This document shows positions 9,264-12,841 of a DNA stretch of 64,000 nt, in pieces. The notes under the pieces are model-generated. The model did not search any database. It was given only the letters and a program-made list of their open reading frames with translations, and was not told where the DNA came from. This stretch comes from Bacteroidales bacterium (GTDB taxonomy: Bacteria > Bacteroidota > Bacteroidia > Bacteroidales > GCA-2748055), in assembly GCA_029210585.1 (NCBI GenBank), contig JARGFP010000009.1, positions 1 through 64,000 on the forward strand. The letters are read 5' to 3'. The position numbers and the translations under genes were made by a program. Positions within the stretch are counted from its first letter, which is position 1. Each line of letters starts with the position of its first letter.

Positions 9264-9597
9264 TCGCATGCAGCTATTGACCCGTTCGTTCCGCAGAGTT
9301 CGTAAACCCGGTTCTTGCAAGCCCGTTATTAATTGAAATATCTTTGCTCAATAATGAGGATTTCGTTTGGCAGGGTGTGCTTCTCCAGTTTATTATTGGA
9401 TTGTCCCAAGCCGCTTCAGTAACCATTCCAAACCGCTTCAATATATATCCACCCCTGATCCGATATATATTACCAATAGTAATAACGAATGGTTGTCAGC
9501 TTTCAACTTGTTTAAAATCAGTCTCAATTAGTATGTATTTTGCTGTGAAATGTTCCTTTTTCAAAAAAATCGTTAGATTTAAGCTCAAATTCTGAAA
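9264..9597. other. AT-rich intergenic region before the trp leader
   Basis: This stretch of 334 bp contains no convincing gene. An open frame at 9344-9595 has no recognisable protein character. Two similar CCAAGCCGCTTCA/CCAAACCGCTTCA words lie at about 9407 and 9429. The promoter of the trp leader must lie near the right end; TATTTTG at 9536-9542 resembles a Bacteroidota -7 box but is one base short and has no well-spaced -33 partner. Confidence 0.5.
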
Positions 9598-9663
9598 ATG
9601 GAACGGAATACTCACAGGGTGATCTGGCGTTGGCGATGGCAATGGCACTGTCAAAGTGCCTGA
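9598..9663 (+). CDS. trpL: Tryptophan-rich leader peptide of trpB2 (attenuator peptide)
   Basis: A 21-codon open frame starts with ATG at 9598 and stops with TGA at 9661-9663. Codons 10, 12, 14 and 16 are all TGG, alternating with Arg, Arg and Gln (WRWRWQW). Four Trp in 21 codons is far above chance. It lies 117 bp before trpB2 and is followed by an antiterminator/terminator arrangement. The peptide is expected to act only as a sensor: when charged Trp-tRNA is scarce the ribosome stalls on the TGG run and transcription continues into trpB2. The logic is that of the enterobacterial trpL/trpE leader. Seen directly: codons, spacing and hairpins. Inferred: transcription of the region and ribosome stalling. 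Confidence 0.85.
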   Translation: MERNTHRVIWRWRWQWHCQSA

Positions 9664-9721
9664 TGATCTGTTGTATTCCTTGAATGTGTAATTTCATTTA
9701 AATTATATTCGGATCGTCGGG
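9659..9721 (+). promoter_or_regulatory. Antiterminator pairing of the trp attenuator
   Basis: Segment 9659-9670 (CCTGATGATCTG) can pair over 12 positions, G-U pairs included, with 9710-9721 (CGGATCGTCGGG). The right arm takes away the first three bases of the terminator stem that begins at 9719. The left arm straddles the leader stop codon, so a ribosome that finishes the peptide covers it and releases the terminator, while one stalled at the TGG codons leaves it free to pair. Confidence 0.7.
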
Positions 9722-9746
9722 GCTTGTGTACATAAGCCCCTTTTTT
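9719..9746 (+). terminator. Rho-independent terminator of the trp attenuator
   Basis: GGGGCTT (9719-9725) pairs with AAGCCCC (9734-9740), with one to two further pairs towards the loop, and is followed at once by six T residues (9741-9746). It lies between the leader stop and the trpB2 ATG at 9781, so it ends transcription early when the leader peptide is completed. Confidence 0.9.
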
Positions 9747-9780
9747 ATGTTGGATATATTCACCTGAAAAAATAGAAATC

Positions 9781-11157
9781 ATGCGTAAACAGACCAAGAT
9801 CACTCTTGATGAAAAGGAGATGCCACGACAGTGGTACAACATTGCTGCGGACCTTCCCGGAACAATGAATCCGCCGCTGGGACCTGACGGAAACCCCATC
9901 GGGCCGGAAATGCTGGCCCCGGTATTCCCTATGAACCTGATCGAACAGGAGGTAAGCCAGGAACGGTGGATCGATATACCTGAAAAAGTGCTTGAGATGC
10001 TGTATCTCTGGCGTCCCACACCGTTGGTACGGGCATACAATCTTGAAAAGGCCCTGGGAACTCCTGCCCGGATCTATTACAAGAACGAAAGCGTATCTCC
10101 TGCCGGGAGTCACAAGCCCAATACGGCGGTGGCACAGGCATATTACAACAAAGAATTTGGTATTAAAAAGCTGACTACCGAGACGGGTGCCGGACAGTGG
10201 GGGAGCGCACTGGCCTTCGCCACTTCCCTGCTGGGAATGGAATGCAAGGTATTCATGGTGCGGGTGAGCTTCGACCAGAAACCATTCAGGAAAATGATGA
10301 TGCGGACCTGGGGAGCCAATTGCATTGCAAGTCCGAGCATGGAAACCCAGGCAGGCAGGGACATTCTTGAAAAATACCCCGACACCCCCGGAAGCCTGGG
10401 TATTGCCATTTCGGAAGCCATTGAGGCGGCTGTAACGGATAAAACAGGTCAGACCAGGTATTCACTGGGAAGCGTACTGAACCACGTGATTCTCCACCAG
10501 ACCATCATCGGGCTGGAAACCAAAAAACAACTGGCCAAGATCGATGAGAAAAAAGTGGATGTGGTCATAGGTTGTGCCGGCGGCGGAAGCAACTTTGCCG
10601 GGCTGGCGTTCCCGTTTGTACTTGACAAGATCAACGGGGCCGAGATAGATGTGGTTGCCGTGGAGCCGGCCAGCTGTCCGACCCTCACCCGCGCACCGTT
10701 TGCCTATGACCATGGCGATGTGGCGAAAATGACGCCCCTGATGGCCATGCATACGCTGGGACATAATTTTATACCACCCCCTATACATGCCGGCGGATTG
10801 AGGTACCACGGGATCTCCCCGCTGATCAGTCATGCCGTGAACCACGACCTGATCAGACCGGAAGCAATCCACCAGATGGAATGCTATGATGCTGCAGTGA
10901 AGTTTGCACGCACCGAGGGAATCATTCCTGCCCCGGAAACCAGTCATGCCATTGCTTCCGCCATCCGCGAAGCCAACAAAGCCAAAGAGGAAGGGAAAGA
11001 GAAGGTGATCGTCTTCAATTTCAGTGGGCATGGTCTGATGGACCTGGTGGGATATGATAAATTCTTTAACGGCGAATTGTCGGATCACTCCCTCCCGGAA
11101 GAGGACCTGGCGAAATTCACGGAAATCCTGAAAGGGTACCCGGTGCCGACCAGGTAA
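9781..11157 (+). CDS. trpB: Tryptophan synthase beta-like protein TrpB2
   Basis: This is a PLP enzyme of 458 residues, the longer TrpB2 type rather than the roughly 400-residue TrpB1. It condenses indole, and perhaps other donors, with serine to give tryptophan. Lys112 in AGSHKPNTA forms the Schiff base, Glu134 in TETGAGQWG matches the catalytic Glu, and GCAGGGSNF is the PLP-phosphate loop. The N-terminal extension with [14 protein letters not shown] is characteristic of TrpB2. No trpA is adjacent, and TrpB2 proteins commonly work without tight TrpA partnership. The gene sits directly behind a Trp-codon leader and terminator, so it is expected to be switched on by tryptophan starvation, which supports a biosynthetic role. 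Confidence 0.92.
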
Positions 11158-11289: not shown

Positions 11290-11410
11290 CGCAATTAAAA
11301 GGCTAAAGGTCGTCCACTATAATTATACCAGGCATACGTACTTGTTTTTGCATCCTTTTTTCGCTGCAATCAAATATTCCCCTAATTTTATAAAAAAATA
11401 TGCCACCGCT

Positions 11411-12841
11411 ATGATCGACGCAAAAGACTTCCGGAAACATGCCCATGATTTTGTCGACTGGATGGCCGACTACCTGGAACACGTGGAGGACCTTCCCGTG
11501 AAATCACAGGTGAAGCCCGGTGAAATATTCAGTCAGCTTCCCGATGCGCCACCTTCGGAAAGTGCGGATATCTCAGCCATCTTCAGTGATTTTAAACACA
11601 TCATCCTTCCGGGGATGACCCACTGGCAGAGTCCGAACTATTTTGCTTATTTCACCGCCAATTCCAGCTACCCATCGGTGCTCGCAGAGATGCTTACAGC
11701 AACCCTCGGGGCCCAGTGCATGGTATGGGAAACCTCCCCGGCAGCAGCAGAGCTGGAGGAGAAAGTGATGGCATGGCTGCGGGAGATGATCGGTCTGCCG
11801 GCAACGTTCGAGGGAGTGATCCAGGATACCGCTTCCACTGCAACGCTGGTTGCGTTTCTGACGGCCCGGGAGAAACATTCCGCATACAGGATCAATGAAA
11901 AAGGTTTCTCGGGGAACGAGCACTTCAGGATTTATTGCAGCACCGAGGCCCACTCGTCCATCGAAAAGGCGGTGAAGATGGCCGGTTTTGGCAGGGAAAA
12001 CCTGGTGAAGATCGAAACAGATGCGGTGCTTGCGATCCGTCCCGGCAAACTCAAAGAGGCGGTGGAGCAGGACCTCGCGAACGGGCATACCCCGCTGTGT
12101 GTGGTGGCTGCCCTGGGTACCACCGGCACTGTGGCGATCGACCCGCTGCAACCGGTTGCCGAAATCTGCATGAAGCACAACATCTGGCTCCATGTGGATG
12201 CCGCCTATGCCGGAACGGCACTGGTACTGCCGGAACAACGGTACATGATCGAAGGGATCGGGGATGTGGACAGCTTTGTATTCAATCCGCACAAGTGGAT
12301 GTTCACAAACTTCGACTGTTCGGCCTATTTTGTGAAGGATGTGGGGGCGTTGCTGAAAACCTTCGAAATCCTCCCCGAATACCTGAAGACCGGTACACGC
12401 GGCCAGGTGAATGACTACCGCGACTGGGGCGTGCAACTCGGCAGGCGGTTCCGTGCCCTGAAGCTCTGGTTCGTGATCCGCGATTACGGTATGGAAGGGA
12501 TCCGCAGCAAAGTAGGGGACCATATTACCTGGGCTGGGGAACTGGCAAAAGAAGTCCAGATGGAACCCGGGTTTACGCTACTTGAACCCCAACACCTCGG
12601 GGTGGTTTGTTTCCGATACACACCTGAGGGTGTTAAGGACCAGGAAGCGCTGAATGCCATCAACCAGCGGCTGATGCAGGCATTGAATGGTACGGGAAAA
12701 ATCTACCTGACACATACCAAAGTCGACGGGTACATCATCCTGCGCATAGTGGTCGGCCAGACCAGCGTCACCCGCGATCATGTGATGCAAGCCTGGAACC
12801 TGGTGAAAAAGATGGCTCCCGGAGCTCTGAAGCAGCCCTGA
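11411..12841 (+). CDS. Group II PLP-dependent aromatic L-amino acid decarboxylase
   Basis: This 476-residue enzyme follows the DOPA/tryptophan decarboxylase pattern through its whole length: HWQSPNYFAYF with SYPS, TSTATLVAFL, HVDAAYAGTA, the PLP lysine Lys295 in NPHKW, and a catalytic loop PEYLKT ending in QLGRRFRALKLWFV. Tyr324 occupies the position of Tyr332 of human DOPA decarboxylase. Its replacement by Phe marks aldehyde synthases, so decarboxylation is predicted. The likely products are tryptamine, tyramine or phenethylamine. The ATG at 11411 is chosen because the 43 in-frame codons upstream do not resemble the family. The gene lies 253 bp after trpB2 in the same direction with a large hairpin between, so tryptophan is an attractive substrate, though sequence alone does not prove it. 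Confidence 0.88.
   Translation: MIDAKDFRKHAHDFVDWMADYLEHVEDLPVKSQVKPGEIFSQLPDAPPSESADISAIFSDFKHIILPGMTHWQSPNYFAYFTANSSYPSVLAEMLTATLGAQCMVWETSPAAAELEEKVMAWLREMIGLPATFEGVIQDTASTATLVAFLTAREKHSAYRINEKGFSGNEHFRIYCSTEAHSSIEKAVKMAGFGRENLVKIETDAVLAIRPGKLKEAVEQDLANGHTPLCVVAALGTTGTVAIDPLQPVAEICMKHNIWLHVDAAYAGTALVLPEQRYMIEGIGDVDSFVFNPHKWMFTNFDCSAYFVKDVGALLKTFEILPEYLKTGTRGQVNDYRDWGVQLGRRFRALKLWFVIRDYGMEGIRSKVGDHITWAGELAKEVQMEPGFTLLEPQHLGVVCFRYTPEGVKDQEALNAINQRLMQALNGTGKIYLTHTKVDGYIILRIVVGQTSVTRDHVMQAWNLVKKMAPGALKQP

Follow-up and report, generated by a model that had tools for sequence, protein, structure and literature searches.

What does a short tryptophan-rich open reading frame do when it stands, together with a hairpin and a run of T, in front of the gene of a stand-alone TrpB-like PLP enzyme? 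This question is raised by a locus of a Bacteroidales bacterium that lies within the window, the whole stretch of 64,000 nucleotides of DNA that was analysed. Our answer is that the element at 9598-9746 is very probably a ribosome-mediated transcription attenuator tying the expression of trpB2 to charged tRNA-Trp, where the parts, their conservation in the genus, and their recurrence in relatives are observed, and leader translation, dependence on tryptophan, the direction of the switch, its kinetics, and the activity of the enzyme are what we infer. This kind of switch is already known; what is new here is trpB2 as its target, the recurrence of this target, and the leader peptide of the Prolixibacteraceae.

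The controlled gene encodes a protein of 458 aa that scores 724.2 bits with NF009057 (cut-off 366) and 642.5 bits with TIGR01415 (cut-off 518.85), while the TrpB1 model gives 171.6 bits, under its cut-off of 392.45; the protein is thus of the TrpB2 class (TIGR01415 / PRK12391), over the curated cut-off and above TrpB1. The predicted activity of such a stand-alone TrpB2 is most likely the formation of tryptophan from indole. The same has been suggested for BT_RS23500 of Bacteroides, like the window's protein a TrpB2-type enzyme in the Bacteroidales, and the accessible part of that paper describes no regulation (PMC11535334). TrpB2_o enzymes lie outside trp operons and, according to the available part of the source, another function was argued for one archaeal case (PMC1854888). 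About 245 nt downstream of trpB2, at 11402-12838, the window holds a Pyridoxal_deC (group II) amino-acid decarboxylase that could act on aromatic amino acids. A conserved trpB2 neighbourhood or operon was rejected as a claim because, in a search of 124 loci of which many had little downstream sequence, this decarboxylase stood beside trpB2 elsewhere only in L088.

The initial annotation had described a frame of 21 codons with TGG at codons 10, 12, 14, and 16, a strong stem at 9719-9740 with six T, and the trpB2 ATG at 9781, and all of this reads exactly so in the sequence (Table 1). The leader ORF opens with ATG at 9598 and closes with TGA at 9661-9663, and its four TGG codons begin at 9625, 9631, 9637, and 9643. 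As in a ribosome-mediated trp attenuator, a short and presumably translated ORF with clustered Trp codons precedes a Trp gene, an intrinsic terminator lies between leader and trpB2, and the leader stop falls within segment 2 (9654-9670), where a terminating ribosome would block this segment in our models. The four-TGG pattern alone is not rare, with 5 sites in the window's own genome and 3 for the reversed-pattern control, and it was rejected as a genome-wide signal because its count is near the control level. Of the other four sites, two fall into long frames (93 and at least 333 codons) and two into short ones (7 and 28 codons) with no Met ahead of the Trp run. Scanning the genome for TGGTGGTGG was likewise uninformative (182 matches vs 143 reversed controls). 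What is unusual is the combination of leader, arms, and terminator, not the four-TGG pattern by itself.

Table 1. Features of the trpB2 leader region (window coordinates).
Feature	Position	Strand	Basis or remark
Promoter-like box TAGATTTA, TAnnTTT type	9574..9581	+	Sequence; begins 24 nt before leader ATG
Leader peptide ORF MERNTHRVIWRWRWQWHCQSA (predicted)	9598..9663	+	Sequence; Trp-rich leader also in L088 (WRWRW) and L089 (WRWRWHW)
Four control Trp codons TGG	9625..9645	+	Sequence
Hairpin 1:2, GGCACT (9644-9649) / AGTGCC (9655-9660)	9644..9660	+	MFE fold; 6 pairs in window
Antiterminator left arm (segment 2), spans leader stop	9654..9670	+	Pairs 16/16 with 9710-9725
Antiterminator right arm (segment 3)	9710..9725	+	7 nt common to terminator 5' arm
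Intrinsic terminator, stem 9719-9740 and T6 9741-9746	9719..9746	+	Sequence; GC-rich stem, hairpin -13.4 kcal/mol
trpB2 (stand-alone TrpB-like PLP enzyme), controlled gene	9781..11157	+	NF009057, TIGR01415, PALP domain

The trpB2 transcript probably includes the leader because TAnnTTT boxes, which we take to be the -7 consensus of Bacteroidota, cluster before the leader ATG. Over 87 loci, the starts of such boxes peak in the bin from -30 to -26 (34 sites vs 2 in the shuffle), and the window's box falls just outside this peak in the bin from -25 to -21 (6 sites vs 1). Boxes in similar position are found in L088 (TAGTTTTA) and L089 (TAGCTTTA), the loci of two further genomes of the window's genus.

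An antiterminator of 12 pairs had been proposed between 9659-9670 and 9710-9721. These pairs exist, with CCTGATGATCTG matching CGGATCGTCGGG at 12 of 12 positions (3 of them G-U), but the duplex is really longer: beyond a bulged G9658, 4 further pairs join 9654-9657 to 9722-9725, giving 16 of 16 pairs in total and an overlap with the 5' arm of the terminator of seven bases, not three. When one arm is slid by 1 to 4 nt, only 4 to 9 of the 16 pairs are left. The hairpin formed by 9644-9649 and 9655-9660 competes with the left arm of the antiterminator, which results in the textbook layout of 1:2, 2:3, and 3:4 pairings. The window's leader RNA folds with a z of -5.15, a stability reached by 0 of 200 dinucleotide shuffles, and its best arm duplex has a z of -5.56, a value matched by 0 of 200 sequences in which the left part was shuffled.

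When the emerging RNA was folded step by step and a ribosome occupied Trp codon 16, the 16-bp antiterminator was the best fold for each of the four lengths tried (9726 to 9736). A ribosome at the leader stop masks the left arm of the antiterminator, and the modelled folds then keep the terminator and lose the antiterminator. At equilibrium, the complete leader RNA of the window prefers the terminator in every modelled state with a pairing probability near 1, and forced antiterminators are 3.6 to 5.7 kcal/mol worse than the best fold; the switch would therefore have to be kinetic and decided during transcription. Stalling on the first two Trp codons of the window would, according to the model, leave hairpin 1:2 free to form. 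Six relatives were folded like the window: stalling at later Trp codons cuts the terminator probability at equilibrium to 0.15-0.34 in L089 and L090 and gives values of 0.59-0.76 in L088, the equilibrium tips only with a stall at the first Trp codon in L012, and no stall position tips it in L017 and L061.

In the mechanism that we propose, transcription would begin just 5' of the leader ORF, as the promoter-like box suggests, and a ribosome trailing RNA polymerase would translate the 21 codons of the leader. If Trp-tRNA is scarce, the ribosome would stall at any of the four TGG codons, covering segment 1 (9644-9649) when the stall occurs at a later one, so that segment 2 could pair with segment 3 (9710-9725) as it emerges and take seven bases away from the terminator's 5' arm; with the antiterminator formed, the polymerase would continue into trpB2. 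If Trp-tRNA is plentiful, the ribosome would reach the stop at 9661-9663 and block segment 2, and the terminator at 9719-9740 would form.

How much of this architecture is kept among close relatives can be read from the family, in which 22 of 28 genomes match trpB2 and 18 regions were used beside the window. Within the genus, the gene is present in two more genomes, with TrpB2 identities of 93% (L088) and 91% (L089), and a third one that is 68% complete gave no trpB2 match. The antiterminator pairs are kept in register at 13 of 16 positions in L088 and 14 of 16 in L089, the arm duplexes have z values of -3.9 and -3.3, and hairpin 1:2 is kept with 7 pairs in both loci vs 6 in the window. Most substitutions in the antiterminator affect one side of a pair (U-G to C-G or U-A), 2 to 3 mismatches occur, and at one pair (9670-9710) both sides differ. 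With three sequences and mostly one-sided changes, this comparison backs the antiterminator stem modestly.

Beyond the genus, we compared trpB2 upstream regions from 80 named loci, the family, and the order, where 135 of 393 genomes have trpB2 (25 new loci and 80 of the 105 hits lacking a locus were used); together with the window these are 204 regions, 194 of them distinct. A strict leader, defined as an ATG-started ORF with at least 3 Trp in 8 codons, is present in 68 of the 194 distinct regions, and 58 of those also have an intrinsic terminator; the antisense strands and three dinucleotide shuffles that served as controls gave 0 for the leader and 0 for the leader with terminator. When at least 2 Trp are required, the counts rise to 112 leaders, 87 of them with terminator, vs 6 and 0 on the antisense strands and 12, 20, and 10 leaders (0, 2, and 0 with terminator) in the shuffles. 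No other residue clusters in these short ORFs as frequently as tryptophan (68 regions; 0 on the antisense strands and 2 in one shuffle). By the criterion used, 82 of the 194 regions have no leader of at least 2 Trp, and these leaderless regions include loci from other phyla and more distant TrpB2 relatives in the order. The combination of Trp leader and terminator before trpB2 thus recurs within the window's family, in some members of the order, and among KSB1-like bacteria.

These counts bear on the reading that the terminator belongs to an upstream unit, that the Trp-rich ORF is a coincidence, and that trpB2 has its own promoter at 9747-9780. The 34 nt between the U-tract and the trpB2 ATG speak for such an arrangement, but leader and terminator recur together before trpB2 far beyond the controls, a promoter-like box stands ahead of the leader, and the antiterminator stays in register within the genus, and we consider this reading highly improbable. 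The comparison of relatives' upstream regions that the initial annotation had proposed as a check supports its attenuation reading on two counts, the recurrence of Trp-rich leaders with terminators and the register of the antiterminator in the genus, with the dependence on tryptophan being predicted; the lack of conserved Trp codons or stems that would have refuted this reading was not observed.

The Trp codons are retained while the flanking sequence varies across lineages, and many lineages share little except runs such as WWW, WRW, and WWWW. This pattern argues against a ligand-binding riboswitch or T-box in place of a translated attenuator, for which the stable fold of the window and the recurrence of some terminator loops across lineages could be cited. 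Rfam models likewise lend such an explanation no support: the search that the initial annotation had called for found no match at gathering score in the window, be it to RF01692, RF00513, T-box, or riboswitch families, 12 trpB2 relatives gave a tRNA as their only match at gathering score, and a further scan below threshold returned only four matches, all to unrelated families. Taken together, a riboswitch or T-box has very little probability, and Rfam as a means of identifying the element was rejected since the window and its relatives lack such matches. Across 19 loci scanned at E up to 1, there was one sub-threshold match to RF01692 (L133) and one unrelated match.

The recurrence of attenuator parts does not extend to a uniform antiterminator in all lineages, which was rejected because just 21 of the 87 loci in the arm duplex test have a z below -2 (mean z -1.06). 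The test is not significant in most other lineages, and the same layout can therefore not be claimed there; even L090 of the window's own family has a z of -0.91. In the second genus of this family (L008-L018, L107, and L108), 8 of 13 loci have a z below -2, and ATGCTTCGT, which is conserved in the leader, forms pairs with ACGGGGCAT in the arm of the terminator. Leaders such as WGWWW and duplex z values of -3.3 to -4.2 are seen at L058 and L077, two loci with KSB1 in their titles, and at L084, which falls into one group with them on the tree; their arm sequences are unrelated to those of the window. On a quick TrpB2 tree of 111 rows (75 with leader and 36 without, the labels of 15 loci being assigned by hand), 9 changes account for the leader label; a shuffle mean of about 33 was computed with differing labels for L092, L096, L099, L115, and L116.

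Some of these loci carry features of their own. In L107 (G006), the leader ends early at a stop codon that falls within what is the antiterminator arm in relatives, and the pairing is weak (z -0.11); intact versions of this leader are present in relatives. The TrpB2 matches of L126-L129 contain in-frame stops (one each in L126-L128 and three in L129) and are possibly decaying copies; L126-L128 retain a leader ORF with two Trp codons. Certain tops of terminator hairpins, GTTGTTTACGCAGC, GTTGGTTACAGC, GTTGTTTACAAC, and variants, recur across otherwise dissimilar leaders (L027, L036, L041, L056, L065, L066, L104-L106, L120, and L124), and perhaps they pair with leader bases or form a protein site.

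The trpB2 leader of the Prolixibacteraceae (Mariniphaga, Draconibacterium, Maribellus, and others; loci L223-L252 and 26 of L022-L121) departs from this picture of variable flanks. It reads MYKxPLYGKEWxWRNVKMEA, with a core of YGKEWxWRNVKME and two Trp codons. The pattern W.WRN[VI]KME occurs in 58 of 140 genomes of one family (that of G191), once in each and with 0 control hits; we equate this family with the Prolixibacteraceae since its rows fall among theirs on the TrpB2 tree. All 30 of the 30 loci fetched for this pattern lie before trpB2, and 29 of them have YGKE. Across the 43 distinct leaders compared, YGKE has a pN/pS of 0.04 and RNVKME one of 0.09, against 0.50-1.20 for the four neighbouring codon groups, where the conservation of RNVKME is partly selected for because it was part of the search patterns and YGKE was not required in the W.WRN[VI]KME search. 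Covariation links the last base of the Arg codon to the first of codon 21 (C-G in 23, U-A in 20, and one mismatch among 44), and this pair closes a hairpin that includes the second Trp codon. Another hairpin around the leader stop was seen by eye and is absent from the consensus fold. Five loci of the same clade (L027, L036, L066, L120, and L124) have leaders with WWW or WWWW instead.

Judged from these comparisons, the Prolixibacteraceae leader is constrained both as a peptide, at the level of its amino acids, and as RNA. Counting of Trp codons alone does not explain it, and it could serve fine-tuned stalling or act as a nascent-chain sensor. A bolder proposal, which we regard as unlikely though worth stating, is that this attenuator has turned into a sequence-specific nascent-peptide switch, with tuned stalling or Trp-dependent arrest through contacts to the ribosome, coupled to the covarying hairpin and the one at the stop codon; if true, it would be a new class of tryptophan-sensing leader that arose among ordinary multi-Trp attenuators of the same gene. 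The leader offers a natural case of selection on a leader peptide sequence beyond its Trp codons.

For the window's element itself, the same conservation could be taken to suggest a TnaC-like arrest peptide that senses free tryptophan, so that high tryptophan would arrest the ribosome and alter termination and the peptide sequence would matter. The low pN/pS values of the Prolixibacteraceae leader speak for such a peptide, that of RNVKME being partly owed to the search patterns. But the peptides of the window, L088, and L089 have in common no more than the core WRWRW and a terminal S-A encoded by bases that belong to hairpin 1:2, many other lineages share little past their Trp runs, and the enzyme belongs to a family that makes tryptophan and does not degrade it. 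We therefore find an arrest peptide improbable at this locus and retain attenuation by stalling at Trp codons.

Attenuation of trpB2 would not be the only Trp control of this genome. On contig C72 it has a trpE-G-D-C-F-B1-A operon, as assigned by best NCBIfam models (trpE and trpF under their cut-offs), and a leader MLFNIHNNWWWPFDTQ with WWW and a strong terminator precede this operon (L218:1277-1397). WWW leaders are found at 20 of 22 trpE loci of the family, the other two being one leaderless locus and one without upstream sequence, and none of the nine family trpE loci that were scanned has an Rfam match at gathering score. The earlier statement that the element controls a TrpB2 rather than a whole trp operon has to be amended in that this genome equips its trp operon with a Trp attenuator as well. 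trpB2 and the trp operon thus bear parallel but unlike Trp leaders. Since the trp operon has its own WWW attenuator, Trp starvation should induce de novo synthesis and the stand-alone TrpB2 together. The presence of a Trp-codon attenuator before trpB2 in many Bacteroidales and in KSB1-like bacteria also suggests that the cell treats TrpB2 as a tryptophan-making enzyme in parallel to the trp operon, so that the leader gives a hint of TrpB2 function that can be read from the genome.

Whether such an element has been described in this lineage had been left open by the initial annotation. Bacteroidetes Trp leader RNAs are on record, as the Bacteroid-trp motif (RF01692) was described as a cis-regulatory motif of Bacteroidetes by Weinberg 2010 in the part of the paper available (PMC2864571), and its Rfam name is "Bacteroidete tryptophan peptide leader RNA". 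Like the window's element, RF01692 is a cis-regulatory leader of Bacteroidetes, and its consensus has UGGUGGUGG in a frame opened by AUG, then a hairpin region and GGCUUGUC. Unlike that element, RF01692 matches mostly precede trp loci that begin with trpB1 or trpE: at least 59 of 393 genomes of the order match at E 0.01 or better, 20 of them over the cut-off (a lower bound due to stricter filters), and the next gene of the 30 loci fetched from these 59 is trpB1 in 26, trpE in 3, unclear in 1, and trpB2 in 0. One of the other 29 hits, whose coordinates alone were compared with those of the trpB2 genes, lies directly before trpB2 and is below the cut-off (G089/L133; 40.8 vs 49 bits). The window gives no match to RF01692 (cut-off 49 bits), its own genome has none at E up to 10 among the 150 of 277 candidates scored, and the element does not belong to RF01692 as that family is modelled. 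In G150, G311, and G370, three genomes from a single family of the order, trpB2 follows an RF01692 leader at a distance of 3-4 kb and on the same strand, and trpB2 may be near or part of a trp cluster there; trpB1 comes next after the leader in the two of them that were fetched (L296 and L302).

Leader-peptide attenuation has further been suspected in Flavobacterium psychrophilum, judging by the part of that source at hand (PMC9723704). In the literature that we searched, partly available and with subscription papers mostly outside its coverage, no stand-alone trpB2 of Bacteroidota is described as having a Trp leader in front of it. Our results extend trp attenuation in Bacteroidota from the operons matched by RF01692 to a second target that is mostly missed by that model.

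The trp leader of enteric bacteria has two adjacent Trp codons, alternative 1:2, 2:3, and 3:4 pairings, and a stop codon in segment 2. The window's element resembles this enterobacterial leader (RF00513) in its Trp-codon leader peptide, predicted alternative pairings, U-tract, and stop within segment 2, and differs from it in lacking an Rfam match, in the spacing of its four Trp codons, and in preceding a single stand-alone gene. Actinobacterial trp attenuators are classical ones with double or triple UGG, and that of C. diphtheriae precedes an operon named trpB2A by the authors, as stated in the available part of the paper (PMC1262725). As far as this source goes, the latter is an operon with trpA in another phylum, whereas the gene in the window is a TIGR01415-type TrpB2 that stands without trpA.
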